A stretch of 64,000 nt of DNA from Pseudoalteromonas sp. R3 (GTDB taxonomy: Bacteria; Pseudomonadota; Gammaproteobacteria; Enterobacterales; Alteromonadaceae), in contig NZ_CP034835.1 in the NCBI RefSeq assembly GCF_004014715.1, positions 1,302,001 through 1,366,000 on the forward strand, read 5' to 3'. Positions 1-19,105 of this stretch are shown one piece after another. The notes under the pieces are model-generated. The model was not told the origin of the DNA, did not search any database, and was given only the letters and a program-made list of their open reading frames with translations. Position 1 is the first letter of the stretch. Each line of letters begins with the position of its first letter. The position numbers were made by a program, and so were the translations under genes.

Positions 1-1
1 T

Positions 2-1057: not shown

Positions 1058-1920
1058 ATGCCTCTCTGAACGCGGTAGCCGGGCACTTTACCATTTTACC
1101 TCTGCGCCTGACGTTTAGGCTGGGGGCTGATTGCGAATTGCCGGTATTTAAAGGCAGTATGTGGCACGGCTGGCTGGGCCAGGCATTAAAAAGCCATGAT
1201 GAGCATGCCTTTTTTGTGCTCTTTGGTGAACATGCCGAAGGCCAGCCCAAACCTTACTCGGTGGTGGTTGAAGATGATCAGCGCAGTCACTGGCGTAAAG
1301 GCGAGCTTATCCACTTTACCCTGTATTTGTTCGCAGAGGTATGCCAGCTGGCAGAGCGAATAGTTGATGCCTTACAGGCGGGCTGCCGCCTCGGGCTGGG
1401 CAAGGCCCGTACTCAGGTACAACTACTGAGTGTGGCCAGCCAAACACCCAGCGGGCTTAAACCGGGCATTCAGCCATCCGTCCTCGGCAGCTGGCTCACG
1501 CCAATAGATAGCGGGTTTTCTCAGGAAGTGGCACTGGAATTTGTGACCCCGTTAAGGCTCAAAGTGGCACAACAACAGCTGCGCAAGTCGCCACCGCTGG
1601 CCATTTTGTGCCAGCAAATAAAACGGCGGCTGACCTTGCTGACCCGCTTCTGGTTATGTGACGACAACACTTTGCTGCAAGGGTTACACCAGTCACTCCC
1701 GGTGCTGGGTCAGCATGAACACAGCGATTTTATGTATTTTGAAAACTGGCAGCGTTTTTCAAACAAACAACAGGCGCAGATCCCATTCGGCGGCATGAAA
1801 GGCCAATCCAGCTACTGCGGCGAAATAGCCGACGCCATCCCCTGGCTGCAACTGGGCGAGCTCATCGGCATCGGCGGCAAAACCACCTTCGGCCTCGGCC
1901 GCTATCGGTTAATCGCCTGA
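1054..1920 (+). CDS. cas6: CRISPR pre-crRNA endoribonuclease Cas6
   Basis: This 288-residue protein has the size and C-terminal glycine-rich signature (G-I-G-G-K-T-T-F-G-L-G-R-Y, residues about 271-283) of the type III-associated Cas6 family. That enzyme cuts pre-crRNA in the repeat and leaves an 8-nt 5' tag. The downstream repeats end ATTGAGAC or ATTAAGAC, which fits such a tag. A second glycine-containing stretch, G-C-R-L-G-L-G-K, lies near residues 110-117. The gene overlaps the preceding RAMP gene by 4 nt and is the last cas gene before the repeat arrays. Catalytic residues cannot be assigned by eye because this family is divergent. Confidence 0.88.
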   Translation: MNASLNAVAGHFTILPLRLTFRLGADCELPVFKGSMWHGWLGQALKSHDEHAFFVLFGEHAEGQPKPYSVVVEDDQRSHWRKGELIHFTLYLFAEVCQLAERIVDALQAGCRLGLGKARTQVQLLSVASQTPSGLKPGIQPSVLGSWLTPIDSGFSQEVALEFVTPLRLKVAQQQLRKSPPLAILCQQIKRRLTLLTRFWLCDDNTLLQGLHQSLPVLGQHEHSDFMYFENWQRFSNKQQAQIPFGGMKGQSSYCGEIADAIPWLQLGELIGIGGKTTFGLGRYRLIA

Positions 1921-2097
1921 TAAGCATTTGAATAAGCGCCAAGGCGCAACGCTCTTTAACAATTTGGAAATTGGATTGTCACCCGGCCCAAAGCTGTGAA
2001 AGCAGGGCCTGGTGATCCCTGTTTCTGGGATTAAGATGGATTGAACGCGTCCATACAGATTTTACCATCTTCATTAGGATACTCCCCGTTTGATAGG
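1921..2097 (+). other. Cas6-array junction with a degenerate repeat and a truncated B repeat
   Basis: This segment after cas6 has no gene. It holds a hairpin at about 1979-2015 (a near-perfect 10-bp stem around a 15-nt loop). It then has a sequence at about 2011-2037 that resembles a degenerate CRISPR repeat: GATCCC, a 7-nt loop, then GGGATTAAGAT. A spacer-like stretch of 37-38 nt and a truncated B repeat (about 2075-2097) ending GATAGG follow. The degenerate copy may be the oldest relic of the array. This is read by eye and the match is partial. Confidence 0.45.
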
Positions 2098-2219
2098 CTG
2101 AGAGCCGCCCGGAAAAAGCACTGCGTTTTCAGGCTCGACGGTGAGGCCTTGGATGGTCGATTCTGGCGAACGCACAACTTAGCGCTTCATGGACGAATCA
2201 AAGTGCACATTACTGACCC
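2098..2219 (+). repeat. Array-interspersed hairpin element, copy 1
   Basis: This is the first of about eleven copies of a 110-125 bp sequence beginning CTGAGAGCCGCCCGG directly after a B repeat truncated at GATAGG. It carries a hairpin near its start (GAAAAAGC, short loop, GCTTTTTC in most copies; here the second arm has a mismatch). It ends in the conserved stretch TTCATGGACGAATCAA through GTGCACAT before the next B repeat. No reading frame is conserved between copies. Confidence 0.7.
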
Positions 2220-2278
2220 ATTGGACGCTCCCCGTTTAACTATCCAGCTTCGAGCACCGTAATGACCAACGACTCATC

Positions 2279-2500
2279 GTCATTCCGCACTTGATGCGGA
2301 ATCTACCGTCAGACAACGCCGTTTGCGCTAACCTGTGGTTCTCACTAAAACCCCGGGAGGTTAGCGCTCGTATAAGCTCATGTTTATTGTGAGATTATGG
2401 AAGTTGGCTGCTTAGAGAGCTGCTGCTTGGGTTGGTTTTGAGCGAGGTTAGCGCAAAAGTCGGCTTTAGGCCTTGTAATATTTGGGCTGAGGAGCAGTCC
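2279..2500 (+). promoter_or_regulatory. A-type CRISPR leader, copy 1
   Basis: The region starts with a palindrome (ATTCCGCA, 5-nt loop, TGCGGAAT) and continues with GCGCTAACC and an inverted copy GGTTAGCGC, then a further GGTTAGCGC. It runs directly into the first A repeat. The same sequence precedes A-repeat blocks at 3578, 4997, 6404 and 11707, which is the main evidence that it is the leader and promoter of A arrays. It is preceded by a truncated B repeat ending in GTTTAACTATCCAG. Confidence 0.7.
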
Positions 2501-2728
2501 GCTGCATTCCCCGCGCGAGAGGGGATTGAGACACCTTTCGTTCTGCGTAATAATGCTGGTCGCAATGCTGCATTCCCCGCGCGAGAGGGGATTGAGACCA
2601 GTTCAGTTGCTATAGGTCAAAAAGAATTGCCGCTGCATTCCCCGCGCGAGAGGGGATTGAGACACACCGCTGGAACTAAAACAGGTGGGGTATGTTGCTG
2701 CATTCCCCGCGCGAGAGGGGATTGAGAC
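2501..2728 (+). CRISPR. CRISPR block 1, four A repeats
   Basis: There are four identical 32-nt repeats at 2501, 2567, 2632 and 2697, with spacers of 33-34 nt. The repeat starts GCTGCATTCCCC, has the loop GCGCGAGA, and closes with GGGG and ATTGAGAC. The CCCC/GGGG stem with an ATTGAGAC end indicates transcription in the plus direction. The sequence after the fourth repeat (from 2729) is a conserved module that recurs after repeats ending at 12284 and 14785. Confidence 0.95.
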
Positions 2729-2932
2729 AAGAAGCCAAAGAGGCTACGATTGTTACCTACAGTTTGATATTCTCAGGTGTAAGCGCGAGGCAATGGACGC
2801 CGATTCTGGCGAACGCGCCACTTGGCACTTCATGGACGAATCAATGTGCACATTATTGAACTATTTGGACATTCCCCGCTTGATAGGGGATTAAGACCGA
2901 ATGTTTTTACTGTATACAGCAAAAGCTTTATT
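2729..2932 (+). CRISPR. Array-end module, degenerate B repeat and shared last spacer (copy 1)
   Basis: The stretch from 2729 (starting AAGAAGCCAAAGAGG) is repeated at 12285 and 14786. Its 3' part is shared with the hairpin element (TTCATGGACGAATCAA). A B-like repeat at about 2865-2897 ends GGGGATTAAGAC and is followed by a 35-nt spacer at 2898-2932. The same spacer occurs at 5441, 6763 and 13750, one of these with a base change. A decayed repeat that loses similarity after ACTCCC follows, marking an array end. Confidence 0.7.
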
Positions 2933-2949
2933 GTTTGGATACTCCCTGC

Positions 2950-3225
2950 TTTTGGATCGTGATTACCAACCATTCACAGTCATTCCGCACTCGCTGCGGA
3001 ATCTACCAACAAGCAACTCGGAAATAGCGTTGTGATTAGGCTGGCAGTCGCAACCGAACATCTATTTGCTTGTAAGCAGATACCGGATCAAGTCCGGTAT
3101 GACGGCGGTGTGGGAGTTTGATTCGGTGCAGAGGTTTGGCAATTGGTAAGGACTGACAAACTGAATAATACTAGTGATTTATCCACCGCCCGAGCCCACG
3201 GCAGGCAAGAATTCTGAAAGGAAGG
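2950..3225 (+). promoter_or_regulatory. Short B-type leader module, copy 1
   Basis: This module links a decayed terminal repeat to a new B repeat. It contains two REP-like palindromes (ATTCCGCA/TGCGGAAT and ATACCGGA/TCCGGTAT) and ends with the stretch TTATCCACCGCCCGAGCCCA through AAGGAAGG. That end immediately precedes B repeats here and at 5772, 7091, 8038, 13095 and 14077, which marks it as the proximal leader for B arrays. Confidence 0.65.
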
Positions 3226-3317
3226 GTTTGGATGCTCCCCGTTTTATAGGGGATTAAGACGTTAGTGGTACCATCAACAAAGGCATATAACGCGAGTTTG
3301 GATACTCCCCGTTTGAC
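3226..3317 (+). CRISPR. CRISPR block 2, one B repeat plus truncated repeat
   Basis: A full B-type repeat at 3226-3260 (one loop base changed to GTTTTATA) is followed by one 35-nt spacer. A second B repeat at 3296 then breaks at GTTTGA, where A-type leader sequence takes over. Confidence 0.8.
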
Positions 3318-3319
3318 CA

Positions 3320-3577
3320 TTTTGCTTTGTGCACAATGATTGCCTACTACTCACCGTCATTCCGCACTTGATGCGGAATCTACCTTCAGACAACGCCGTT
3401 TGCGCTAACCTGTGGTTTTCACGAAAACCCCGGGAAGTTAGCGCTCGAGTAAGTTCATGTTTATTATCATATTGTGTAATTTTGATATGCAGAATGCGTC
3501 TGCTTTGGTCAAAACTGACCGAGGTTAGCGCAAAAGTCTGTTTATGGCTTCGTAATATAAGGGCTTTAGAGCAGACT
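3320..3577 (+). promoter_or_regulatory. A-type CRISPR leader, copy 2
   Basis: This is the second copy of the leader at 2279-2500, with the palindrome ATTCCGCA/TGCGGAAT, the GCGCTAACC...GGTTAGCGC inverted pair and the later GGTTAGCGC copy. It runs straight into the A-repeat block at 3578. Confidence 0.7.
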
Positions 3578-4367
3578 GCTGTATTCCCCGCGCGAGAGGG
3601 GATTGAGACATCACGGTCCTCACCATTATTTAGGTTCTTGACCCGCTGCATTCCCCGCGCGAGAGGGGATTGAGACATTTATTGGGTGTGGGCGCCGACA
3701 GCATTGAGATAGCTGCATTCCCCGCGCGAGAGGGGATTGAGACATCTCGTTCAAACCAGTGTGTTGTGTAAATACGGCTGCATTCCCCGCGCGAGAGGGG
3801 ATTGAGACACCGTCCCTAAACCAATCTGATTCGACGTATACGCTGTGCTCCCCGCACGAGAGGGGATTGAGACCTCCCCATGAACGCGATAACCAGCGCC
3901 ATACCGGCTGTACTCCCCGTTTGATAGGGGGTTCAGACTTTTGAGTCGCTTTCCACTCCTCTGCTAATTGAACGTTTGGCTAACGTGTCATCATTGGCTG
4001 TATTCCCCGCACGAGAGGGGATTAAGACGTTTCTGGGTATTCGTGACAGTATGTCGGATAAGAGTTTGGATGCTCCCCGGTTGATAGGGGATTAAGACAT
4101 CAGCGATTCTTGACCAATTTTGATCTATTACGGTTGGACGCTCCCCGGTTGATAGGGGGTTAAGACAACATGGCACATCTGGCATATCTCGATAATTACG
4201 GCTGCGTTTCCCGTACGAGAGGGGATTGAGACTTTTTAGCCAAGAAACGCCTTTGCTACAGAGTTTGCTGCATTCCCCGCACGCGAGGGGATTAAGACGA
4301 CTTTTTCTTAACTGGGGCAACAAGGTGTTTATTGTTTGGATATTCCCGTTTGATAGGGAGTTAAGAC
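3578..4367 (+). CRISPR. CRISPR block 3, twelve mixed A, B and hybrid repeats
   Basis: Repeats start at 3578, 3645, 3712, 3777, 3842, 3907, 3997, 4064, 4132, 4201, 4267 and 4334. The first four are A type and the fifth is an A variant with GCACGAGA in the loop. The repeat at 3907 is a hybrid with an A-like 5' end and a B loop. Those at 4064, 4132 and 4334 are B type, and 4201 and 4267 are A type again. The interval 3939-3996 is 58 nt, longer than any normal spacer here. Both repeat classes within one continuous array show exchange between the two systems. Confidence 0.93.
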
Positions 4368-4431
4368 TCGTCTTGGTCTTCTTCATAGTCTTCGTCTCGA
4401 AGACTTTCAGTTGATATGGTGTATACAGCTT

Positions 4432-4667
4432 AAACAGAACAACACCTCAGCAGTGCATATTGCACTCGAAACTGAGTTTATCTGCATACAATACCTTTTT
4501 GCGCTAACCCTTGGTTCTCACGAAAACCCGGGTGGGTTAGCGTTCTTGTAAGTTAATGTTTATTATTACATTGTATGGTTTAGATACGCAGCATGCGCTT
4601 ATTTGGGTCCTGTTTGAGCTAGGTTAGCGCTTCATGGACGAATCAATGTGCACATTACTGACCTACT
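4432..4667 (+). promoter_or_regulatory. Divergent A-type leader fused to hairpin-element 3' end
   Basis: This is a diverged copy of the A leader (GCGCTAACC, GGGTTAGCG, GGTTAGCGC). Its last part switches into the 3' end of the interspersed element (TTCATGGACGAATCAA) instead of an A repeat. The join falls at the shared GGTTAGCGC motif, which suggests recombination at that site. Confidence 0.5.
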
Positions 4668-4823
4668 TGATATTCCCCGCTTGATAGGGGGTTAAGACAA
4701 ATAAACCTGAATTAAAAAGTACGGAGACATGCTTGGATACTCCCCGTTTGATAGGGGGTTAAGACACTCCGCTATTTAGAACATTACGAAAGACATCGTC
4801 TGGTTGGATACTCCCCGTTTGAC
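4668..4823 (+). CRISPR. CRISPR block 4, two B-like repeats plus truncated copy
   Basis: Repeats lie at about 4668-4698 and 4731-4765, both with the GGGGGTTAAGAC variant. A third at 4802 breaks after GTTTGA into an A leader. Confidence 0.8.
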
Positions 4824-4996
4824 TATCCAGCTTTTTACACAGTGCTTGCCAACCACTCACCGTCATTCCGCACTTGATGCGAAATCTACCTTCAGACAAC
4901 GCCGTTTGCGCTAACCTGTGGTTCTCACGAAAACCCCGGGAGGTTAGCGCAAAAGCAGGTTTCTGGCCTTGTGATATATAGGTTGTGGAGCAGACC
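4824..4996 (+). promoter_or_regulatory. A-type CRISPR leader, copy 3, internally deleted
   Basis: This leader lacks the roughly 100 bp that lie between the two GGTTAGCGC direct repeats in the other copies. One repeat remains, followed directly by AAAAGCAGG. This is the product expected from recombination between those direct repeats. It still abuts an A repeat at 4997. Confidence 0.65.
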
Positions 4997-5063
4997 GCTG
5001 CGTTCCCCGCACGAGAGGGGATTGAGACGTTTTTTCGTACAACCAGCTTTCAACGGTCTTCGC
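4997..5063 (+). CRISPR. CRISPR block 5a, single A repeat and spacer
   Basis: One A repeat (4997-5028, GCACGAGA loop variant) is followed by about 35 nt of spacer-like sequence and then by an IS3-family end fragment. The array is interrupted at this point. Confidence 0.75.
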
Positions 5064-5064
5064 T

Positions 5065-5187
5065 GTGTAGTGGTCAACTAATCCCGGACAGTAAATAAAG
5101 TTTTTCTTCCGCAGCAGCTGGCGCGATCATTTCATTGTTGCTGTGTGGCCTTTGCCAGTTGTAGTAGTCCGTTTAATTGATGTTTAT
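5065..5187 (-). mobile_element. IS3-family remnant (3' end of orfB and terminal sequence)
   Basis: On the minus strand the frame 5172-5074 reads T-D-Y-Y-N-W-Q-R-P-H-S-N-N and ends L-Y-L-L-S-G-I-S followed by a stop. This matches the typical C-terminus of IS3-family OrfB transposases. The outer end TGTAGTGGTCAACTAATC looks like an IS3-type terminus. There is an in-frame stop just upstream, and the rest of the element is absent. It sits between an A repeat block and a B block, so the insertion and deletion broke an array. Confidence 0.65.
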
Positions 5188-5200
5188 CTTACCAATACCA

Positions 5201-5475
5201 GTTTGGATACTCCCCGTTTGATAGGGGATTAAGACTGTCTTAAGAACTGCTTATCCTCTTCAGGTGTATGTTTGGATACTCCCCGTTTGATAGGGGATTA
5301 AGACCTCTTTTTGGCTTAGAGAGTATCGGCGTTTAAGTTTGGATACTCCCCGTTTAATAGGGGATTAAGACGCTACCAGCCAGTCGAATTGCGTTATGTC
5401 TGTTAGTTTGGATACTCCCCGTTTGATAGGGGATTAAGACCGAATGTTTTTACTGTATACCGCAAAAGCTTTATT
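5201..5475 (+). CRISPR. CRISPR block 5b, four B repeats and shared last spacer (copy 2)
   Basis: B repeats with the 5' form GTTTGGATACTCCCC start at 5201, 5270, 5337 and 5406, each 35 nt, with spacers of 32-35 nt. The spacer at 5441-5475 is the shared last spacer (one base differs, TATACCGC against TATACAGC). A decayed repeat then loses similarity after ACTCCC. Confidence 0.93.
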
Positions 5476-5507
5476 GTTTGGATACTCCCTTGCTTTTGTG
5501 CAACGTG

Positions 5508-5771
5508 ATTACCAACCATTCACAGTCATTCCGCACTCGCTGCGGAATCTACCAACAAGCAACTCGGAAATAGCGTTGTGATTAGACTAGCAGTCGCAAC
5601 CGAACATCTATTTGCCCGTAAACAGATACCGGATCAAGTCCGGTATGACGGCGGTGTGGGAGTTTGATTCGATGCAGAGGCTTGGCAATTGGTAAGGACT
5701 GACAAACTGAATAATACTAGCGACTTATCCACTGTCCGAGTCCACGGCTGGCAAGGCCTCAGAAAGTAAGG
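5508..5771 (+). promoter_or_regulatory. Short B-type leader module, copy 2
   Basis: This is a second copy of the module at 2950-3225, with the same two palindromes and the proximal end GCCCGAGCCCA-like (here TGTCCGAGTCCA), ending at a B repeat. Confidence 0.65.
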
Positions 5772-6014
5772 GTTTGGATACTCCCCGTTTGATAGGCTGA
5801 GAGCCGCCCGGGAAAAGCACCGCTTTTTCAGGCTCGAAGGTGAGGCCTTGGATGGCCGATTCTGGCGAATGCACCACTTACTGCTTCATGGATGAATCAA
5901 TGTGCACATTATTGACCTACTGGATACTCCCCGTTTGATAGGGGATTAAGACTTACTAAACTCAGTATTGAAAGTCCCTGAGACAGGTGGTTTGGATGCT
6001 CCCCGTTTGATAGG
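5772..6014 (+). CRISPR. CRISPR block with hairpin element copy 2 inside a repeat
   Basis: A B repeat truncated after GATAGG (5772-5796) is followed by the hairpin element at 5797-5917. A full B-like repeat ends at 5952, then a 37-nt spacer, and another B repeat truncated at GATAGG (5990-6014). Confidence 0.75.
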
Positions 6015-6123
6015 CTGAGAGCCGCCCGGAAAAAGCACCGCTTTTTCAGGCTCGAAGGTGAGGCCTTGGATGGCCGAACAGGTTAGCGCTTCATGGACGA
6101 ATTACCTGCACATTACAGACCTA
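6015..6123 (+). repeat. Array-interspersed hairpin element, copy 3 (short form)
   Basis: This copy has the perfect GAAAAAGC/GCTTTTTC hairpin. It is the short form, with GGCCGAACAGGTTAGCGC in place of the longer GATTCTGGCGAACGCGCC segment. It ends in a decayed repeat (TTGGATACTTCCCTCGTG) that joins A-leader sequence. Confidence 0.65.
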
Positions 6124-6142
6124 TTGGATACTTCCCTCGTGA

Positions 6143-6403
6143 CTATCCAGTTTTGTGCACAGTGATGATCAACCACTCACCGTCATTCCGCACTTGATGC
6201 GGAATCTACCTTCAGACAACGCCGTTTGCGCTAACCTGTGGTTCTCACGAAAACCCCGGGAGGTTAGCGCTCGTGTAAGCTTATGTTTATTATGATATTG
6301 TGTAACTTTGATATGCAGATTGCGTCTGCTTTGGTCAAATTTGACCGAGGTTAGCGCAAAAGCAGGTTTCTGGCCTTGTGATATATGGGCTGAGGAGCAG
6401 GCC
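6143..6403 (+). promoter_or_regulatory. A-type CRISPR leader, copy 4
   Basis: This is a full-length A leader with the palindrome at 6182-6202, the GCGCTAACC...GGTTAGCGC pair and the distal GGTTAGCGC. It runs into the A repeat at 6404. Confidence 0.7.
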
Positions 6404-6797
6404 GCTGCATTCCCCGCGCGAGAGGGGATTGAGACATTTTCCAGGTGATTGGTATAGGCCTGCTCCAGCGCTGCATTCCCCGCGCGAGAGGGGATTGAGA
6501 CATTATCATGTATTGAGAGTAGGAAAGCGTTGGGTGCTGCATTCCCCGCGCGAGAGGGGATTGAGACCATGAGTGGGCGGCGATTATCGAAAAAAAATGG
6601 GCTGCATTCCCCGCGCGAGAGGGGATTGAGACCAGGTGCCAGCGCTGGGTAGCCGAATCTCGCACGCTGCATTCCCCGTGCGAGAGGGGATTGAGACGCC
6701 TGACGATGTAGTCACCGACAACCGGCGCTTGCTGCATTCCCCGCTTGATAGGGGATTAAGACCGAATGTTTTTACTGTATACAGCAAAAGCTTTATT
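6404..6797 (+). CRISPR. CRISPR block 6, five A repeats, one A/B hybrid, shared last spacer (copy 3)
   Basis: Repeats start at 6404, 6470, 6536, 6601, 6666 and 6731, with spacers of 33-34 nt. The last is a hybrid: its 5' end (GCTGCATTCCCC) is A and its 3' end (GCTTGATAGGGGATTAAGAC) is B. It is followed by the same 35-nt spacer found at 2898, 5441 and 13750. An A array has thus acquired a B array end, with the crossover inside the repeat. Confidence 0.95.
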
Positions 6798-6829
6798 GTT
6801 TGGATACTCCATGCTTTTGGATCGTGATT

Positions 6830-7090
6830 ACCAACCATTCACAGTCATTCCGCACTCGCTGCGGAATTTACCAGCAAGCAACTCGGAAATAGCGTTGTGA
6901 TTGGACTGGCTGTCTCAACCGAACATTCTATTTGCCTGTAAGTAGATACCGGATCAGGTCTGGTATGACAGAGGCGGAGTATTTGGTTTTGTGCTGAGGT
7001 TTGGCAATTGATAATGATTGACAAACTGAATAATACTTACTACTTATCCACCGTCCGAGCCCACGGCTGGCAAGAACTCTGAAAGCAAGG
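6830..7090 (+). promoter_or_regulatory. Short B-type leader module, copy 3
   Basis: This is the third copy of the two-palindrome module, ending with ACTTATCCACCGTCCGAGCC and AAGCAAGG directly before a B repeat. Confidence 0.65.
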
Positions 7091-7455
7091 GTTTGGATGC
7101 TCCCCGTTTGATAGGGGATTAAGACTTTAAACAACAGAACTAAAAGAAAAACAAATTCTGGTTGGATGCTCCCTGTTTGATAGGGGATTAAGACACTGAA
7201 TTTTATCACCGCTATCACAAGTTTTTTTGTTGGATGCTCCTCGTTTGATAGGCTGAGAGCCGCCCGGAAAAAGCACTGCTTTTTCCGGCTCGAAGGTGAG
7301 GCCCTGGATGGCCGAACTGGTTAGCGCTTCATGGATAAATCAATGTGCACATTATTGACCTACTGGATGCTCCCCGGTTGATAGGGGATTAAGACCAAAG
7401 ATATACCGTTCAGTTGCCTCTACTGTTTCTGGTTGGATGCTCCCCGTTTGATAGG
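7091..7455 (+). CRISPR. CRISPR block 7, B repeats interrupted by hairpin element copy 4
   Basis: Full B repeats lie at 7091-7125, 7160-7194 and about 7361-7395. A B repeat truncated at GATAGG (7228-7252) and the hairpin element (about 7253-7360) separate the second and third. Another truncated B repeat lies at 7431-7455. Confidence 0.85.
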
Positions 7456-7585
7456 CTGAGAGCCGCCCGGAAAAAGCACCGCTTTTTCAGGCTCGAAGGT
7501 GAGGCTTTGGATGGCCGATCCTGGCGAACGCGCCACTTAGCGCTTCATGGGCGAATCAAAGTGCACATCGCTGACCTATCGGATA
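7456..7585 (+). repeat. Array-interspersed hairpin element, copy 5, fused to long leader
   Basis: This copy has the perfect hairpin and the long internal segment. It ends not in a repeat but in GACCTATCGGATATTTGC, which opens the long B leader. The same fusion occurs at 8278 and 12513. Confidence 0.65.
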
Positions 7586-8037
7586 TTTGCTACCACCGTT
7601 AAGCCATTAACTGAATAACTCAAGCAGGGTAAAAAGTTATCTACAGAATTAATAATCAAATCTGATTACTCGGCATCAGCTCATAAACCTGACAAATGTT
7701 TATGTATCTGAAGTGAGTAAGTCATTACGGCTATCCACAAATCAATCGTTCAAAAGGATAGTGGAAAGAATAAGCTGTAGATTGTCATCATTATTTTTTA
7801 TCAATTTCAATTGGATAGTTAGAAAAGTGGATAAGAATATGACAAACTCATCGGTACTGACAGGGTTGGCTTTTTGGGCAATAATACAACTTATTGAAAG
7901 TTAATTATAAATATATTATTGATGTAAGTAATCTCGCAATTTTTTTGTAAGATATTGACACTTAATGACAAACTGAACAATACTAGTGACTTATCCACCG
8001 CCCGAGCCCACGGCTGGCAAGGCCTCTGGAAGTAAGG
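7586..8037 (+). promoter_or_regulatory. Long B-type CRISPR leader, copy 1
   Basis: About 450 bp of AT-rich sequence precedes a B repeat. It is nearly identical to 12651-13094 and to the first 225 bp of 8406-8630. It includes ACTGAATAACTCAAGCAGGG, several A/T tracts and, proximal to the repeat, the GCCCGAGCCCACGGCTGG segment shared with the short B leaders. Its position before an intact 10-repeat array at 13095 supports a leader role. A 63-codon frame at 7713 is not counted as a gene. Confidence 0.65.
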
Positions 8038-8277
8038 GGTTGGATGCTCCCCGTTTGATAGGCTGAGAGCCGCCCGGAAAAAGCACCGCTTTTTCAGGCT
8101 CGAAGGTGAGGCCCTGGACGGCCGATTCTGGCGAACGCACCACTTACTGTTTCATGGACGAATCAATGTGCACATTATTGAACTATTGAATACTCCCAGT
8201 TTGATAGGGGATTAAGACAATTTTAAAACTGTAGCCTTCAAAGTGTTGAACTGGTTGGATGCTCCCCGTTTGATAGG
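8038..8277 (+). CRISPR. CRISPR block with hairpin element copy 6
   Basis: A B repeat truncated at GATAGG (8038-8062) is followed by the hairpin element (8063-8183) and a complete B-like repeat (8184-8218, CCCAGTTTGATAGGGG variant). A 34-nt spacer and another truncated B repeat (8253-8277) follow. Confidence 0.75.
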
Positions 8278-8630
8278 CTGAGAGCCGCCCGGAAAAAGCA
8301 CTGCTTTTTCCGGCTCGAAGGTGAGGCTTTGGATGGCCGAACCTGGCGAACGCGCCACTTAGCGCTTCATGGGCGAATCAAAGTGCACATCGCTGACCTA
8401 TAGGATATTTGCTACCACCGTTAAGCCATTAACTGAATAACTCAAGCAGGGTAAAAAGTTATCTACAGAATTAATAATCAAATCTGATTACTCGGCATCA
8501 GCTCATAAACCTGACAAATGTTTATGTATCTGAAGTGAATAAGTCATTACGGCTATCCACAAATCAATCGTTCCAAAGGATAGTGGAAAGAATAAGCTGT
8601 AGATTGTCATCGTTATTTGTTATCAACTTC
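8278..8630 (+). repeat. Hairpin element copy 7 fused to a truncated long B leader
   Basis: The element (8278 to about 8405) leads into the first 225 bp of the long B leader. That copy stops at TATCAACTTC and jumps to the last 13 bases of an A repeat. About half of the leader is missing, so the A block that follows probably has no native leader. Confidence 0.65.
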
Positions 8631-8888
8631 AGGGGATTGAGACATCCATAAAGAATTAGGCCAAATAGTGCAGAATGCTGTATTCCCCGCGCGAGAGGGT
8701 ATTGAGACACACTGCGCAACCTGTCAGGATCTCCATGATATAGCTGCATTCCCCGCACGAGAGGGGATTGAGACTCTGGTTATTTTTTTCAGTCATCAAA
8801 TTACTCATGCTGCATTCCCCGCGCGAGAGGGGATTGAGACCCACGCTGAGACAACGTGCTCCCACTCGATACGGCTGCATTCCCCGCG
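8631..8888 (+). CRISPR. CRISPR block 8, A repeats, truncated at both ends
   Basis: The block begins with the last 13 nt of an A repeat (8631-8643), then has full A repeats at 8677, 8743 and 8809. It ends with an A repeat cut after GCTGCATTCCCCGCG at 8888. Spacers are 33-34 nt. It is flanked by a broken B leader on the left and a simple tandem repeat on the right. Confidence 0.93.
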
Positions 8889-8945
8889 GAAAAAACACAA
8901 AAACAAAGAAAAACACAAAAACAAAGAAAAACACAAAAACAAAGA
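8889..8945 (+). repeat. Tandem repeat, three copies of an 18-bp A-rich unit
   Basis: The unit ACACAAAAACAAAGAAAA is repeated about three times directly after a truncated A repeat. It has no T's on the plus strand. No gene lies between here and the IS630 element at about 9095; the 150 bp in between hold nothing recognisable. Confidence 0.85.
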
Positions 8946-9094
8946 CACCCAGCCTTACTTGTTCTAGTTACCGGTCCATTGACTATGAATACGATTGCTT
9001 CTGCGAATAAAAAGCGAAAAGTTTCAGTAGTCAGATTGTACGGATGAGTAACTCCAGCTGAAACAGTAGTTATTTGGTGTTTTTGAGCATGGTT

Positions 9095-10205
9095 ATACCA
9101 TTTTGACTAATTAACTGGTCAGATTTATCCAGTCCCTGAAGCACAATGATTTCACCCTGTCAGCACATGAGATAAACGCATTCCATGCTTCGCTGACCTG
9201 ATCCAGAATGTCATCGTAGTTTGCAAAGGTTCTGTTTGATAACTTATGTTGTCTGAGCCAACTCCACACTTGTTCTATGGGGTTTAACTCTGGAGAATAA
9301 GGTGGCAGCCTAATGATCACTACATTCTCCAGGCCTTTTACCAAACCATCTTTGAAGTGCCAGGCTGCGCGATCCATGACGACCACAGCCATTCTTCCTG
9401 GTTGAGTCCTTTGTGATATTTGCTCCAGGTGAGAATACATGACTTCTTTATTCACTATAGGTGAGATGAGTGCTTCTGTTTCACCAGTTTTTGGACACAC
9501 TGCACCAAATAGATAGGCATATTCGAATTGTTGCTGCTTTACAACTCTTGGACGTGAGCCTTTTTCAGCCCAAACTTTTGTTGTCGAAGTTTGCTGACCA
9601 AATCGTGCTTCGTCCTGAAACCACACATCAATGCGTTCAGGAAGCAGGTGTCCCGGGGTGTGAAGGATCGTTTCCAGCTCGAAGTTTTTTAAAAGCTTCT
9701 TGGTGAGCCTGGTTTCCTTTAGGGTGGATTGACCGGCTGCTGATCCATGAGAAGTTTTGTCTTTTCAACAATCTGTGAACAGCTGATAACTCGTACTCAA
9801 TGTGAAAAGACTCAGATATATACTGCTGAATATCTTCTAATGTTAGCCGACCACCTTCCGTGCGGTCTATAGAGTCGAGTACATATGCTTTAAGCTGCTT
9901 CAGTTGTGCACCATCCAGTTTGCAAGGACGGCCCGAGCGAGGCAGGTCTTCCAGGCCCTCTAATCCATAATCGAGATAGTCTTTGACCCATTTGTTTACG
10001 CTAGTACGACTGACCTTTAAATATTCAGCAATCTGATAGCGAGATTTACCTTCAAAGAAATGAGCCAGTGCGAGTATACGCACTTTCTTTCTTGGGTCTT
10101 TAGTCTGTTTGGAGAGCTTAATAAATTCAGAGGGCTGCAAAATCACTATCACAACGATGAAAATTGGATTTTGATATTAGATCATAAATTTAATCAAATT
10201 GGTAT
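9095..10205 (-). mobile_element. IS630-family insertion sequence
   Basis: The element carries one transposase gene on the minus strand. It is bounded by imperfect terminal inverted repeats: ATACCATTTTGACTAATT on the left and, read inward from the right, ATACCAATTTGATTAAAT. IS630 elements duplicate a TA target. The flanks here are TT/TA-like, so the exact ends may be off by one or two bases. It lies inside the CRISPR cluster between block 8 and the HUH transposase pseudogene. Confidence 0.75.
9111..10152 (-). pseudogene. IS630-family transposase, frameshifted
   Basis: The upstream part (10152-9637) has a helix-turn-helix N-terminus (K-S-R-Y-Q-I-A-E-Y-L-K-V-S-R-T-S-V). The downstream part (9626-9111) is the DDE domain, with D-E-A-R-F-G-Q, V-V-M-D-R-A-A-W-H and L-P-P-Y-S-P-E-L-N-P-I-E-Q-V-W. 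Removing one A from the A6 run (TTTTTT at 9685-9690 on the plus strand) joins both parts into one frame through F-K-N-F-E-L-E-T-I-L-H-T-P-G-H, about 347 residues, the normal family length. The cause may be mutation, sequence error or a slippage site; a +1 frame change at A6 is consistent with any of these. Confidence 0.85.
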
Positions 10206-10259
10206 TAAGCTCTGCCAGAGCGCGGCAGTCATCATATGTAATTCAGATAATGGCTTGTT

Positions 10260-11231
10260 CTACCCCAATAAGCGCTCACAATTAGCCAGATTGGGTCGTC
10301 GCTTTTTTTGCAGGTGCTCACAGTATTCAGTCACGGCTTGCTGTCTGCCGACTGCACCGTGGAACACTTTGGTAAATCGTGTGGTGAGTTTTAGCCAGTT
10401 TTCAGGCTCTATTTGCAATCTGGTGAGGATAGGGTGGGCATCGCAGATATGACCTCGCTTGTCTGCACGAATGCATCGGCCTGTTAGCTCAACCAGCTCA
10501 ATATAGTATTTAAGCTCAAAGGGTAATCCTTTGGGCATATCCTGCCTTGGGTTGCCAGCAAAGCGCAGAAGGCTATTTGGTTGTTTGCCATGCTGTGCGT
10601 GTTCAATGCGTTTTTTGATACTGGTGAACTCAGAAGTTTCCGGTGTGGCGGCCATTTTGGCCCGGATAGGGTTCAGGTCAACGTAGGCCATGCAGGCGGC
10701 AAGGGCAGCTTCATCGAGCAATGCCTGAGACTTAAACCGGCCTTCCCAGAACCGACCTGTACAGCAATCTTCTTTATTCGCACGACGAGCAATGTCTTCG
10801 TTCAGTACGCGCATAAACCAGCTAATACTGGCCAGTCTTTCGCGGTATTTGTCGATAATATCGTCGAGCATAATACGTTCGGATGGAGTGAGTTCGTTAC
10901 CTTCCACGAATTAGTGTGTCAGCCAATTTCCCTTAAACAACTTGTGCCAGCGTATGACGATAGCTTTGTCATGCAATCGATTGGCTTTTTTATCGTCCAC
11001 ATACATAACAATGTGAGTATGGTTGCTCATCACAGCGTAAGCGCAAATATCAATGCAGAAAATACTTGCCAGCAGAAGTAGTTTTTCTTCAACCCATCCT
11101 CGGCGATGTTCATAAGATTGGCCTGTTAATGGGTCTTCGCCGCATAAAAAGGCACGCCTTACGCAGCGAGAGATGCAATGGTAGTATTTTGTGTCAACCA
11201 AACTGACCTGGCTTTTCCGTGCCGCTGGCAT
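10260..11231 (-). pseudogene. HUH (IS200-like, RAYT-type) transposase with in-frame stop
   Basis: The N-terminal part contains Y-Y-H-C-I-S-R-C-V-R-R and the HUH motif N-H-T-H-I-V-M-Y-V. The C-terminal part contains G-R-F-W-E-G-R-F-K-S-Q and A-Y-V-D-L-N-P-I-R-A, which holds the likely catalytic tyrosine. A TAA at 10911-10913 splits an otherwise continuous frame (L-T-H-stop-F-V-E-G-N-E), so this is a point nonsense mutation, not a frameshift. The start is placed at M-P-A-A-R-K-S-Q (11231), because upstream codons run into a CRISPR repeat. Total length without the stop is about 322 residues. Such proteins can mobilise REP palindromes, and several palindrome families lie nearby. Confidence 0.8.
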
Positions 11232-11354
11232 TTGCTTCGTCCTTATCCTTGGATCAGATGAAAAGCATAGGCGAGGGGAGTATGACAGACAAGTTTTTGG
11301 TTGGGTGTCTGTCATTTCGCTTTTGATTGAAACCATTCTTGTTAGCCATGTATG

Positions 11355-11445
11355 GTTTGGATACTCCCCGTTTGATAGGGGATTAAGACGATAAGGCAAT
11401 AAGCGTATCATGTGTTTGGCGAAGGTTTAGATACACCCCGTTTGA
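11355..11445 (+). CRISPR. CRISPR fragment, one B repeat, spacer, truncated repeat
   Basis: A full B repeat (11355-11389) and a 35-nt spacer are followed by a B repeat at 11425. That repeat is truncated after GTTTGA and joins the A leader. Confidence 0.85.
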
Positions 11446-11446
11446 C

Positions 11447-11706
11447 TATCCAGCTTTTTACACAGTGCTTGCTAACCACTCACCGTCATTCCGCACTTGA
11501 TGCGGAATCTACCTTCAGACAACTCCATTTGCGCTAACCTGTGGTTCTCACTAAAACCCCGGGAGGTTAGCGCTCATGTAAGCTCATGGTTATTATCATA
11601 TTGTGTAATTTTGATATGCAGAATGCGTCTGCTTTGGTCAAAATTGACCGAGGTTAGCGCAAAAGCAGGTTTCTGGCCTTGTGACATGTTGGCTGAGGAG
11701 CAGACC
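11447..11706 (+). promoter_or_regulatory. A-type CRISPR leader, copy 5
   Basis: This is a full-length A leader with palindrome, GCGCTAACC, GGTTAGCGC and the distal GGTTAGCGC. It directly precedes the A repeat at 11707. Confidence 0.7.
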
Positions 11707-12070
11707 GCTGCGTTCCCCGCACGAGAGGGGATTGAGACCCACAATATAATCGCCAATATATAACCGATAGTGGCTGCGTTCCCCGCACGAGAGGGGATTG
11801 AGACATGACGTCATCGTTTTTTGTGATAGGTATGCCGGCTGCGTTCCCCGCACGAGAGGGGATTGAGACCCCACTCTTCTGCAGTTAAACTATGCCACTA
11901 CATTGACCACTACACTCCCCGTTTGATAGGGGATTAAGACTTATTAGGTAGCTTGGTGTTGAAGCCTTTTTCGAAGTTTGGATACTCCCCGGTTGATAGG
12001 GGATTAAGACTGATCTTATCCAGCTCTTCTATGTAAGCTATTAATGTTTGGATGCTCCCCGTTTGATAGG
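11707..12070 (+). CRISPR. CRISPR block 9, A repeats passing into B repeats
   Basis: A repeats (GCACGAGA loop variant) lie at 11707, 11773 and 11838. A decayed hybrid (ACTACACTCCCCGTTTGATAG) follows at 11909, then a B repeat at 11976 and a B repeat truncated at GATAGG at 12046-12070. As in block 3, the array begins with A repeats and ends with B repeats. Confidence 0.9.
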
Positions 12071-12183
12071 GTGAACGCCGCTCGGAAAAAGCACCGCTTT
12101 TTCAGGCTCGAAGGTGAAGCACTGGATGGGCGAACTGGTTATAGCTTCATGGATGAATTACCTGCACACTATCAAACTGTTTA
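12071..12183 (+). repeat. Array-interspersed hairpin element, copy 8 (diverged)
   Basis: This copy starts GTGAACGCCGCTCGG instead of CTGAGAGCCGCCCGG but keeps the perfect GAAAAAGC/GCTTTTTC hairpin. It ends ATCAAACTGTTTA before an A-like repeat, so the element also sits next to A repeats. Confidence 0.6.
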
Positions 12184-12512
12184 ACTGCATTCCCCGCCCG
12201 AGAGGGGATTAAGACCTCTTTTCTTGGTTTTACCAATTGACTTTCTTTCGTTTGGACGCTCCCCGGTTGATAGGGGATTAAGACAAGAAGCCAAAGAGAC
12301 TGCGGTTGTTACCTACAGTTTGATATTCCCGGGTGTAAGCGCGAGGCAATGGACGCCGATTCTGGCGAACGAGCCACTTGGCGCTTCATGGACGAATCAA
12401 TGTGCACATTGTTGAACTATTGGACATTCCCCGTTTGATAGGGGATTAAGACGCTATACCTGACGAATGAGAGAGTAGCTCTTCTATGTTTGGATACTCC
12501 CCGTTTGATAGG
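12184..12512 (+). CRISPR. CRISPR repeats around array-end module copy 2
   Basis: Repeats are an A/B hybrid at 12184-12215 (GCCCGAGA loop with an ATTAAGAC end) and B at 12250-12284. The AAGAAGCCAAAGAG module follows (12285 to about 12419), then a B-like repeat ending at 12452, a 35-nt spacer and a B repeat truncated at GATAGG (12488-12512). Confidence 0.8.
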
Positions 12513-13094
12513 CTGAGGGCCGCCCGGAAAAAGTACCGCTTTTTCAGGCTCGAAGGTGAGGCTTTGGATGGCCGATCCTGGCGAACGCGCCACTTAGCGC
12601 TTCATGGGCGAATCAAAGTGCACATCGCTGACCTATCGGATATTTGCTACCACCGTTAAGCCATTAACTGAATAACTCAAGCAGGGTAAAAAGTTATCTA
12701 CAGAATTAATAATCAAATCTGATTACTCGGCATCAGCTCATAAACCTGACAAATGTTTATGTATCTGAAGTGGGTAAGTCATTACGGATATCCACAAATC
12801 AATCGTTCCAAAGGATAGTGGAAAGAATAAGCTGTAGATTGTCATCATTATTTTTTATCAATTTCAATTGGATAGTTAGAAAAGTGGATAAGAATATGAC
12901 GAACTCATCGGTACTGACAGGGTTGGTTTTTTGGGCAATAATGCAACTTATTGAAAGTTAATTATAAATATATTATTGATGTAAGTAATCTCGCAATTTT
13001 TTTGTAAGATATTGACACTTACTGACAAACTGAACAATACTAGTGACTTATCCACCGCCCGAGCCCACGGCTGGCAAGGCCTCTGGAAGTAAGG
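12513..13094 (+). promoter_or_regulatory. Hairpin element copy 9 fused to long B-type leader (copy 3)
   Basis: The element runs to about 12650 and joins the long leader, which is nearly identical to 7586-8037. This leader directly precedes the longest regular array in the window, so it is the best candidate for a functional B leader. Confidence 0.7.
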
Positions 13095-13784
13095 GGTTGG
13101 ATGCTCCCCGTTTGATAGGGGATTAAGACAATGTTCTACTCCACCGAACCAAGCAATAATTATTGGTTGGATGCTCCCCGTTTGATAGGGGATTAAGACA
13201 CGGTACCACGCTTCAAGTCCACATCGAGTCCCGGTTGGATGCTCCCCGTTTGATAGGGGATTAAGACCTTCAGCGGCTCGCCGCATGAATTCCAGTAAGC
13301 CGGTTGGATGCTCCCCGTTTGATAGGGGATTAAGACAGATGCTATTTGTTTTTGAGGCATTTCGTGCACTTGGTTGGATGCTCCCCGTTTGATAGGGGAT
13401 TAAGACTAAGCTTTGTTTAAATGCTTACCAACTGCTCTCTGGTTGGATGCTCCCCGTTTGATAGGGGATTAAGACATTTCCACTAGTGTCTACCCCAAAG
13501 CCATCCTCTGGTTGGGTGCTCCCCGTTTGATAGGGGATTAAGACAAAAAAGGTTAGAGCTATGGTGCTTGAACTTTTCAGGTTGGATGCTCCCCGTTTGA
13601 TAGGGATTAAGACTTCATTATCAGGCTCCCAACACGATAATAACCGGTTGGATGCTCCCCGTTTGATAGGGGGTTAAGACCGATGAATGCACTCCAGGTC
13701 ATACCAAATGCAGTGGTTGGATGCTCCCCGTTTGATAGGGGATTAAGACCGAATGTTTTTACTGTATACAGCAAAAGCTTTATT
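13095..13784 (+). CRISPR. CRISPR block 10, ten B repeats and shared last spacer (copy 4)
   Basis: Repeats start at 13095, 13165, 13233, 13302, 13372, 13441, 13510, 13580, 13646 and 13715. They are 35 nt (34 at 13580, where one G of the GGGG arm is lost) and start GGTTGGATGCTCCCC. Spacers are 32-36 nt. The spacer at 13750-13784 is the shared last spacer, followed by a decayed repeat. This is the most uniform array of the cluster, with a complete leader. Confidence 0.97.
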
Positions 13785-13814
13785 GTTTGGATACTCCCTG
13801 CTTGTGGATCGTGA

Positions 13815-14076
13815 TTACCAACCATTCACAGTCATTCCGCACTCGCTGCGGAGTCTACAAGCAAGCAACTCGGAAATAGTTTTGTGATTAGACTGGCAGT
13901 CTCAACCGAACATCTCTTTGCCTGTAAGCAGATACCGGATCAAGTCCGGCATGACAGAGGAGGGGTATTTGGTTCAGTGCGAAGGTTTGGCAATTGGTAC
14001 TAACTGACAAACTGAACAATACTAGTGACTTACCCACCGCCCGAGCCCACGGCTGGCAAGGCCTCTGAAAGTAAGG
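13815..14076 (+). promoter_or_regulatory. Short B-type leader module, copy 4
   Basis: It has the same order as the other copies: palindrome ATTCCGCA-type (here partly decayed, GCGGAGT), palindrome ATACCGGA-type, then the proximal GCCCGAGCCCACGGCTGG stretch before a B repeat. Confidence 0.65.
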
Positions 14077-15093
14077 GTTTGGATACTCCCCGTTTGATGG
14101 GGGATTAAGACTTATCGGTAGGTTTCTCCGGGGCGGGACTTCTTTGTTTGGATACTCCCCGTTTAATGGGGATTAAGACAATTGGTTTAGCTGCTGAAAC
14201 TTCTGGCTCTGTGTGTGGACGCTCCCCGATAGGCTGAGAGCCGCCCGGAAAAAGCACCGCTTTTTCAGGCTCGAAGGTGAGGCCTTGGATGGTGGAACTG
14301 GATACTGCTTCATGGACGAATCAATGCGCACATTATTGAACTATTGAATACTCCCAGTTTGATAGGGGATTAAGGCAACCAAGCGTGGCCCATTTCATGA
14401 TAAGCTGTTTGTTTGGATACTCTCCGTTTGATAGGGGATTAAGACCACTCCCGCGGCTTCTTGATTAAACTTCCCATCTGTTTGGATACTCCCCGTTTGA
14501 TAGGGGATTAAGACATCAAACCACTGTGCAGATGGGGTCAGGTCAATTTGTTTGGATACTCCCCGTTTGATAGGCTGAGAGTCGCCCGGAAAAAGCACCG
14601 CTTTTTCAGGCTCGAAGGTGAGGCCTTGGATTGCCGAACAGGTTAGCGCTTCATGGACGAGTCAATGTGCACATTATTGACCTACTGGATACTCCCCGTT
14701 TGATAGGGGATTAAGACTTTTGGAAAGTTCCTCCATTTATGGAGTAACTCGGTTGGATGCTTCCCGTTTGATAGGGGATTAAGACAAGAAGCCAAAGAGG
14801 CTACGGTTGTTACCTACAGTTTGATATTCCCAGGTGTAAGCGCGAGGCAATGGACGCCGATTCTCGCGAACGCGCCACTTGGCGCTTCACGGACGAATCA
14901 ATGTGCACATTATTGAACTGTTTAACTGCACCCCCGAGCGAGAGGGGATTAAGACTAAAAGTGCCACTTGGAATGGCATTTGAACAGGCTATTGGATACT
15001 CCCCGTTTGATAGGGGATTAAGACCCTTCCCATCTTCCTTGAATAGCCTGTATTCTCTGGTTGGACACTCCCCATTTGATAGGGGATTAAGAC
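14077..15093 (+). CRISPR. CRISPR block 11, ten B-like repeats with two hairpin elements
   Basis: Repeats lie at 14077, 14146, about 14342, 14411, 14480, about 14683, 14751, about 14925 (A-like, strongly decayed), about 14990 and 15059. Hairpin elements interrupt at about 14234-14341 and 14575-14682, each after a repeat cut at ATAGG. A third copy of the AAGAAGCCAAAGAGG module follows the repeat ending at 14785. The last repeat ends at 15093. The 190 bp between it and the csm6-like gene show nothing recognisable. Confidence 0.9.
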
Positions 15094-15284
15094 TCATTTG
15101 AACGTGAGGCACCGTCAAAAACAGCGATTCGCGCTGGTGATAGCGATGATTTAGCTTTGGGTTAGTGCATTTGTTGAGGGAGCTGCGGTTTGCTGACCAG
15201 GTTTACCGGCGCATGGCCGGTATGTGTGGTTTTGGCAGATATGTAAGCGTGTGGATATTGTCGGTTAATAACGCGCCTTGGTTT

Positions 15285-16529
15285 CTATCCGGATCCGATA
15301 ATGATGAAGGGGATGCGATAGAAGCTACCCTGGGTGCGCTTTTCTGAGGTTTCGCCGCCGCTATCGGTATTTGGGTGTGGCAGAATAATATTAACCAGTG
15401 TCATTGGTAGCTGGCGTTGCAGTATGGTTTTTAAATCATTCCTGCGACTGTCGAACATGGAGAGTGTCATGCCCTTGTTTACTAAATCATTCAGCGTTTT
15501 GTGGGTAAATTTTTTGCAGACAGCGTCATTTTGAGTGAGTGCGTTTACTTTGTTGGCAGGTGACATGCTGTCACGATAGTCGGTGTCGGTGACAAACAAT
15601 GCCAGTGCTTTTAAAAAGTTGTCAGCCAGTTTTTGCGGCAGCTCTGGATCTGCTTTGATATTGACTGCTGAGGGGCGTTTTATCTCGCTTTGTTCTCCCT
15701 GATGTGCACACATCAGTAAGAAGACGTATTCCATCAGGTTGTCACTAAAGTCGACTTTAAAGTCATTGATCATTAAACAGGCATCGTTGAAGTGTGCATA
15801 AAGCGTCAGGTTGATGCTGTCCGGATTGGTGGCCAGTTGTACCTGAGCGACCAGATCGGCATAGTCCATATCATTAAACAGCTGGATCTGCGCAGGCGAG
15901 AACAGGCTGCGCAGGCTGACGAACGGGATTTCCGAGAGGGTGACTTGTGCATCCCGGCAGTCGAACTGCTCGCCATTGCGGTTTTCAATCAGTTTTGATG
16001 CGCTGGTGGGAAAGTAAAAGTCGGGCAGGTATTCGTATTGTTCTGAGACCAGTACATGGCTGAGCCGGTCAAAGGGGCGGCCAAAAATACTCATAGCGTA
16101 GCCCAGGTAAAAGGTCATGGTTTTGCGCCCGCCAGCAATAGAGGTATGCAGCCGGGTGTCTGGGTCGCTGCACAGTTTCGCGACTTCTTTAACAATAAAA
16201 TTGGCCAGTGCCTGCTGATCGGCTTCGCTGCGGGTGTCGTCCATTGCCTGCTTATCCGCATCCGATACGGCCAGTATGTTGTCTTCAGTCAGGTAAACTG
16301 GGGGTTTACCAAGTTCGTCGCATAACTGTTTAAGCTGGCCCGGCGTGCCATCTGGCCGTGGGGTGAGCAGGCCTTTGATAGCGGCCTGTTTTCCCTTTTT
16401 AGTGGTGATGATCACAATCTTGTGTGGCCAGTCGAGCTGGCTCTGCGCTATCCCGTACAGGGTTTCAGTGATCACCTGGGGTGCCAGTCCGGTAACGGCC
16501 AGCAGTGTGGTACTGGTTGGATGCGTCAT
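15285..16529 (-). CDS. CRISPR-associated NE0113/Csm6-like CARF protein 1
   Basis: The 414-residue protein has an N-terminal CARF-type Rossmann domain (L-L-A-V-T-G-L-A-P-Q at residues 7-16). It carries the family signature S-I-A-G-G-R-K-T-M-T-F-Y-L-G-Y-A-M-S at about residues 130-147, followed by D-R-L-S-H-V-L-V. This matches the NE0113 family, annotated as a CRISPR ring nuclease or Csm6-like protein that binds cyclic oligoadenylate. No obvious HEPN R-x4-6-H motif is seen in the C-terminal half, so RNase activity of the Csm6 type is not supported. The start at 16529 is chosen because AAGGA lies about 8 nt upstream; a longer frame extends to 16577. It is the last gene of a minus-strand block that converges on the arrays. 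Confidence 0.85.
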   Translation of the reverse strand: MTHPTSTTLLAVTGLAPQVITETLYGIAQSQLDWPHKIVIITTKKGKQAAIKGLLTPRPDGTPGQLKQLCDELGKPPVYLTEDNILAVSDADKQAMDDTRSEADQQALANFIVKEVAKLCSDPDTRLHTSIAGGRKTMTFYLGYAMSIFGRPFDRLSHVLVSEQYEYLPDFYFPTSASKLIENRNGEQFDCRDAQVTLSEIPFVSLRSLFSPAQIQLFNDMDYADLVAQVQLATNPDSINLTLYAHFNDACLMINDFKVDFSDNLMEYVFLLMCAHQGEQSEIKRPSAVNIKADPELPQKLADNFLKALALFVTDTDYRDSMSPANKVNALTQNDAVCKKFTHKTLNDLVNKGMTLSMFDSRRNDLKTILQRQLPMTLVNIILPHPNTDSGGETSEKRTQGSFYRIPFIIIGSG

Positions 16530-16723
16530 GGTGTTTCCTTCTCTTGTGTTTGCCTGGTGGCATTGCATATCCCTCACTTGGCGTAATACGTCATTACAAT
16601 ATCAGGGGCATTAATCTCCTTTTAACGGAGCTGGCAAAGTATCACCACCCGCCTGCGTTATGGTAACGCTGTGCGGGTGTTAAGCGAGTATCCGCCATCC
16701 AATAGGGGTTTGCAATGGCCCTC
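16530..16723 (-). other. Intergenic gap with a strong hairpin inside the CARF gene block
   Basis: This 194-bp gap contains a nested palindrome at about 16648-16682. The outer arms are CACCCGC/GCGGGTG and the inner arms GCGTTA/TAACGC around TGG. No T run follows on either strand, so it is not a classical terminator. It could be an mRNA processing or stability hairpin, or a REP-like sequence. Confidence 0.5.
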
Positions 16724-17944: not shown

Positions 17945-17953
17945 AACAAGCTC

Positions 17954-18973: not shown

Positions 18974-19105
18974 ATCAAATCTCCTGTTTGATGTTTTTGT
19001 GCTGCAAAACATTGCGGAGCAAAGGTTATTATTGTTGTGAAATAAGCCGCACTACATGGAGTCAGCGTACGGCTTAGGGACATAAACTCTTGGTTTATTT
19101 GGTTA

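Follow-up and report, generated by a model that had tools for sequence, protein, structure and literature searches.

The CRISPR cluster of Pseudoalteromonas sp. R3

The genome of Pseudoalteromonas sp. R3 (two contigs, 5.8 Mb) contains a cluster of clustered regularly interspaced short palindromic repeats (CRISPR) in which a non-coding hairpin element recurs within the repeats themselves. The cluster lies in a stretch of 64,000 nt (NZ_CP034835.1, 1,302,001-1,366,000), referred to below as the window, and the limits of 2075-15093 drawn for it in an earlier reading of this DNA (the original prediction) fit. It is bounded by cas6 (1054-1920; PADLOC Cas6, E 1.9e-63), located directly upstream, and by CARF/Csx16 genes (15285-19012). 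Together with cas6, the type III-D effector operon upstream of the cluster comprises Cas7_IIId, Cas5_IIId, Csx19 and pieces of Cas10, the latter apparently split over two open reading frames (ORFs; L009:4888-6610).

The cluster was read directly and then analyzed by repeat search, segmentation and a listing of motifs with exact coordinates; cas6, the leaders, arrays, hairpin elements and array ends described here for the window all lie on the forward strand. Five A leaders and six B leaders, as counted from segmentation and exact motifs, head arrays, most of them short, whose repeats are of types A (32 nt) and B (35 nt). Two of the B leaders are of a long form (7581-8037 and 12638-13094), and the second of these heads the longest B array, with 10 repeats by segmentation (13095-13798), which ends in a spacer that we call the anchor spacer and a truncated terminal repeat. 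We extracted 58 spacers from the window and 166 over 14 stretches, of 32-38 bp and nearly all unique. Regular repeats, unique spacers and adjacent III-D effector genes and Cas6 are as in the CRISPR arrays of type III-D systems. No match to Cas1 (PF01867) was found anywhere in the R3 genome, although most of its spacers are unique, in a search whose control was positive in 9 of 14 genomes. Use of Cas1 in trans is common among type III loci.

A hairpin element at one point of three repeat types

The original prediction placed the hairpin element directly after GATAGG of a B repeat, and this proved exact in all 11 intact copies of the window. The ends of all elements were set by eye from the sequence, alongside motif coordinates. 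The first copy (2098-2222), like the rest, follows GATAGG; those at 5797-5921 and 8063-8187 come immediately after a B leader's first repeat, and those at 7456-7580, 8278-8402 and 12513-12637 run into a long B leader, itself cut off in the case of 8278-8402. The copies at 6015-6125, 7253-7364, 14234-14345 and 14575-14686 complete the set together with the one at 12071-12184, a chimera of element types with an A-type start (GTGAACGCC) and a C-type remainder. Four more copies without the 5' part bring the tail motifs to 15, which is the number of matches to a 14-base tail pattern (at most one mismatch) in the window, against a mean of 0.05 in shuffled sequence. Compared over 58 nt, the copies of the window show 83-100% identity, with a mean of 93%. 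By eye on the segmentation, there was no clear excess of elements beside leaders.

The same element was found in other repeats and other genomes. A second CRISPR locus of R3, on the other contig, has a third repeat type, C, with seven intact copies after TTTAGAGG, and a third locus has four tandem units in A-like repeats without spacers, after a sequence that by eye resembles the A leader. Tandem units within CRISPR were seen in L012 (four) and in Pseudoalteromonas rubra S2471 (two). Some match to a 110-base element used as query was present in 18 of 108 genomes of the genus; scoring up to eight candidates per genome, at least nine matches were obtained only in R3, P. rubra S2471 and S2676, and a further genome, G106, with one to four in each of the other matching genomes. 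An exact-pattern scan of genome contigs for the hairpin core gave five stretches, only from S2471 and S2676, in a collection from which records of the R3 genome or very near ones were possibly left out, and the viral contigs gave none.

In the four genomes of the P. rubra group, which are marine bacteria, the hairpin stands at the equivalent point, (A)GG|, of repeat types A, B and C. Among 40 elements listed from R3, S2471, S2676 and G106 (the list omits the copy at 12513, found later by exact motif), 38 are preceded by a repeat 5' part of type A, B or C, which ends in AGG in 36 cases, in ATG in one and in AGT in one; the remaining two elements are a start at a contig end and a native copy. 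Downstream of the element the repeats resume within their first bases and an intact repeat is left, with the 5' part duplicated around the element over about 22 bases in A, 21 in B and 19 in C repeats as judged by eye. The inserts measure about 110-235 bp, compared with 32-38 bp for the spacers, and only the 5' part of the repeat is duplicated, unlike what is seen with a Cas1-Cas2 spacer. C and A arrays also contain a long form, in which ~105 bases are added in the interior. Copies inside arrays have repeats after them, while four copies at the ends of C arrays have no repeat downstream. It appears, then, that the hairpin entered CRISPR repeats always at the same point and left an intact repeat each time.

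Relatives of the element in tRNA and 5S rRNA genes

The hairpin has relatives outside CRISPR, in R3 and in other species, and belongs to a family of hairpin repeats with GGA loops found genome-wide. Twelve chosen members could be aligned and have in common a GG..GA start and GGA, with compensatory changes at 7 of 11 predicted pairs; the outer stem, not aligned there, was judged from single predicted folds, and L144 folds differently. GGA loops of this kind may resemble CsrA sites. Rfam models gave no match up to E 0.1 in positions 1-16000 of the window, leaving the hairpin unit without a curated RNA family. Repetitive extragenic palindromic (REP) elements have a GTAG/GGAG foot next to a short palindrome; the 12 aligned members start with GG[CG][TC]GA, and the element lacks a GTAG-type foot.

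Outside CRISPR, copies stand directly after GG in tRNA-Met, tRNA-Lys and 5S rRNA genes and at the end of a gene. We searched for duplicated targets with a pattern that required the GG, which returned 21 non-CRISPR cases, not all independent. In 16 of them the sequence leading up to the GG recurs downstream of the element over 15 bases or more and ends at the same GG. The duplications span 15-98 bp, with 46 of 47 positions identical at tRNA-Met, 22/24 at tRNA-Lys, and 95/98, 23/24 and 15/15 at 5S genes; a hairpin that itself served as target gave 82/89, and the gene end, in G042, 33/36. The number of units at tRNA-Met, where they also occur in tandem, differs between genomes: among six loci read out of 30 fetched, R3 has two, G093 three, G072 one and G071 two plus one different insert, and G092 and G032 have none. 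In G028 the hairpin occupies the same D-arm point in tRNA-Val and tRNA-Lys. An order-wide scan with a narrow D-arm pattern found it in 2 of 394 genomes, R3 and G028, both Pseudoalteromonas, in a set with few genomes of the genus and without G093 and G071. In one array of nine tRNA-Lys genes (L206:436-1873), four of the nine are preceded by a tRNA 5' part and a hairpin element.

Array ends joined to the next leader

Two further modules had been described as joining truncated B repeats at constant positions, and both were recovered, constant only up to point changes and not exactly as the hairpin junction is. The first, a B trailer joined to an A leader, has five copies with exact coordinates (2240-2500, 3317-3577, 4823-4996, 6143-6403 and 11446-11706), of which the third is internally shortened; the third and fourth were also aligned. 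The expected GTTTGA precedes the unit in three of the five, with GTTTAA in one and TCGTGA in another. The second, the array-end unit, runs from the anchor spacer through a truncated B repeat and a trailer that contains REP-like hairpins to a B leader, and its trailer and leader lie at 2947-3225, 5490-5771, 6812-7090 and 13799-14076, placed by coordinates and spacers and for the first and last also by alignment; it follows ACTCCC in three copies and ACTCCA in one. Both modules open with a homologous trailer, 42/49 and 47/57 identical in two pairs, scoring 63 and 64 against a best of 26 among 200 shuffles of one pair. On this homology, two of the three modules are array ends, in which a degenerate terminal B repeat and a shared trailer are followed by the leader of the next array. 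The array-end unit, furthermore, looks to have formed once and then been copied, since the same anchor spacer, with at most one change, precedes it in all four window copies and also in one copy of S2471. The claim that leaders and array ends have multiplied into many leader-equipped short arrays holds, with five A and six B leaders and most arrays short.

The REP-like hairpins of trailers and leaders (2279-2310, 2980-3008 and similar), which we take to carry a foot of the GTAG type, have short matches elsewhere in the genome. The cluster also contains two other features. An IS630-like transposase in two ORFs (9111-10152), named by eye from its ends and hits, has near-identical copies elsewhere in the genome, one of them within a C repeat of the second CRISPR locus. 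A broken gene (10260-11411) resembling a REP-associated tyrosine transposase (RAYT) lies in two pieces and has several relatives in the genome; its match, from a scan of the first piece, is weak and below the cut-off.

Differences between strains and probable exchange between loci

Module content and number vary between strains. In S2471 the joint of B repeat and A leader is also found beside cas6, where a spacer and an almost normal repeat come before it; in the window this position is taken by a hairpin unit, so that module content differs at this place. At the C locus, matched by eye between R3 and G106 through a common downstream gene, R3 has seven elements and four leaders and G106 two elements and one leader. 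The spacers were hardly shared. Only the anchor spacer and two others are duplicated among the 166, the latter two each within its own locus, which argues against simple duplication of segments; between strains, leaving aside the anchor spacer, there is a single partial overlap, of 22-23 bases, between the window and S2471, so that shared spacers led to no empty CRISPR site.

The element cores of the B locus are of C type in R3 and of A type in S2471, with the same B-type tail in both. Chimeric cores and tails such as these, and the chimera at 12071, suggest that cores have been exchanged between loci, including loci on different contigs.

Near the C arrays we also observed other CRISPR-related genes. 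A fusion of reverse transcriptase (RT) and Cas1 lies between C arrays of S2471 (L075:834-2885), followed by two apparent Cas2 genes (by eye). Beside a C array in G106 (L072:1963-5892), a 1309-aa protein with CorA-like and Cas10 matches lies next to Cas6 and a protein of the DHH family. A fourth repeat type, D (GCTGAGCTACCCGCGTATGAGCGGATTGAGAC), forms arrays in G106, some of them mixed with C repeats (L071:7400-9990, minus strand).

Origin of the hairpin units

We consider it probable (roughly 0.6) that the hairpin unit is a mobile non-coding repeat that inserts after GG with a copy of the upstream target, CRISPR repeats being one of its targets. This reading rests on the same point of entry in three repeat types and on the presence of the family after GG, with duplicated targets, in tRNA and 5S genes. 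Members of the family with GGA in their loops would insert directly 3' of GG, and the sequence upstream of the GG would be duplicated, so that a complete target gene lies beyond the insert, on its downstream side. In the P. rubra group the entry into the CRISPR repeat would fall between AGG and GGATTRAGAC and yield the order repeat 5' part, element, repeat 5' part, repeat 3' part. More than one entry seems to have occurred, as there are two subtypes that by eye resemble different generic copies, and the 3' junctions differ slightly among A, B and C repeats. Once inside arrays, the entries may have multiplied through recombination between repeat 5' parts, and element cores may then have been exchanged between loci, also on different contigs. 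Separately, whole array ends, with the anchor spacer and the next leader, would have been copied, producing many short arrays with leaders of their own. The junctions, the membership in the family, the duplication of targets at several sites and the unequal copy numbers at tRNA-Met have been demonstrated; active insertion and this order of events are what we infer from the arrangements found.

Several observations weigh against insertion. No duplication was found in five of the 21 non-CRISPR cases (the second copy in L144, L152, L212, L057 and L058), and L117, L153, L164 and L195 gave no case under the pattern requiring GG. A search free of that requirement broke within one base of the GG only at 5S (L140, L141) and tRNA-Met (L142, L157, L164), and its output elsewhere was other repeats, tandem units or, as in L146 and L153, no clear result. 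In L145, what follows the 15-base duplication is not the sequence of an intact 5S gene, and the match of 180/183 in L144 is a tandem unit and not a target duplication. Within arrays, the duplication is separable from the neighboring repeats only at the immediate 3' junction, and many of the CRISPR cases in the target-duplication search pick up another repeat. The lengths of the duplications vary, unlike those of ordinary transposons, no insertion was caught happening, and no mobilizing enzyme could be linked to the family. Finally, elements at C-array ends can run into native intergenic sequence, which fits an origin as array trailer.

That last observation is the basis of the strongest alternative, which we nevertheless regard as unlikely: the hairpin would be the sequence that followed the truncated terminal repeat of an ancestral array, returned into the array by unequal recombination and multiplied by further recombination. 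Four ends of C arrays, one in G106, two in S2471 and one in S2676, show the element running into a native chain of intergenic hairpins with no further repeat; a repeat 5' part precedes it in three of them, and the fourth begins at the end of a contig. Alteration of terminal repeats on their 3' side is described as common in a passage of PMC8047081. However, the same arrangement exists at tRNA and 5S genes, where there is no array trailer, and the C locus common to R3 and G106 ends in another sequence.

The original prediction held that each of the three junctions probably formed once and then spread by homologous recombination between repeats. For the array-end unit, with its anchor spacer copied along, and for the A-leader unit this fits, and recombination between repeats can account for the multiplied leaders and array ends. 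As the sole explanation of the hairpin it is incomplete and, in our view, improbable. Its 3' junctions are similar within each repeat type, as such spreading would predict, but the same 5' junction is found in genes outside CRISPR and in three repeat types with only short stretches in common, and few spacers are duplicated.

Very improbable is an aberrant spacer acquisition, in which RT-Cas1 of the C locus would have inserted a structured RNA but placed the second nick 10 nt before the end of the repeat, so that only the 5' part was duplicated. Such a nick would give the observed structure, and the RT-Cas1 fusion does lie between C arrays of S2471; against it stand the like arrangement in tRNA and 5S genes, the size of the elements (about 110-235 nt, compared with 32-38 for the spacers) and the R3 genome with no Cas1 match. 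Least credible is a duplication of repeats during assembly: the region is rich in repeats, the S2471 contigs break in the element and the copy numbers in the window are those of the assembly, but the copies diverge from one another, most spacers are unique, and a gross artefact is unlikely given a two-contig assembly and structures that recur in three others (overall, two two-contig genomes and two drafts).

Relation to known repeats

The insertion that we favor for the hairpin has partial parallels. Miniature inverted-repeat transposable elements (MITEs) and other non-autonomous mobile repeats are likewise short, structured, non-coding and present in many copies with a duplicated target. The duplications of the hairpin family, in contrast, are long and variable (15-98 bp where found) and have GG as the constant edge at one side; no partner transposase is linked to the family here. 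REP elements and bacterial interspersed mosaic elements (BIMEs), mobilized by RAYT, are also palindromic, intergenic and abundant, and a broken RAYT-like gene lies in the cluster; the hairpin, however, enters RNA genes and CRISPR repeats, and the hairpins of the trailers look more like true REPs.

Mobile DNA within CRISPR arrays has precedents among insertion sequences (IS) and MITEs. A review, in the part concerned, describes the CRISPR loci of Sulfolobales as relatively intractable to transposition and refers to an early study with a single IS and a 132-bp MITE in euryarchaeal CRISPR loci (PMC4390879), whereas here about 40 copies stand at one point of the repeat. Rearrangement of arrays by recombination between repeats, for which PMC8047081 reviews duplications and deletions, changes in terminal repeats and last spacers that stay stable, resembles what we see, the difference being that here multiplication extends to the leaders and trailers, and that repeats of two families alternate. 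Among the papers listed by our literature searches there was nothing on such a hairpin element in CRISPR repeats or tRNA genes.

More tentatively, and with somewhat less than even confidence, the family may represent a new class of mobile hairpin that targets genes of structured RNAs (the tRNA D arm, 5S rRNA and the CRISPR repeat) after GG and copies the upstream target so that the RNA is spared; CRISPR arrays would then act as a reservoir, and the copies as points of exchange between arrays on different replicons. If true, CRISPR repeats would be joined with tRNA and 5S genes in one target class, and a mobile repeat for which the CRISPR repeat is a regular target, spared by a partial copy, would be a new way in which arrays break into units. 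The multiplication of leaders, trailers and elements into many short arrays, as against one long array, would thereby become testable.

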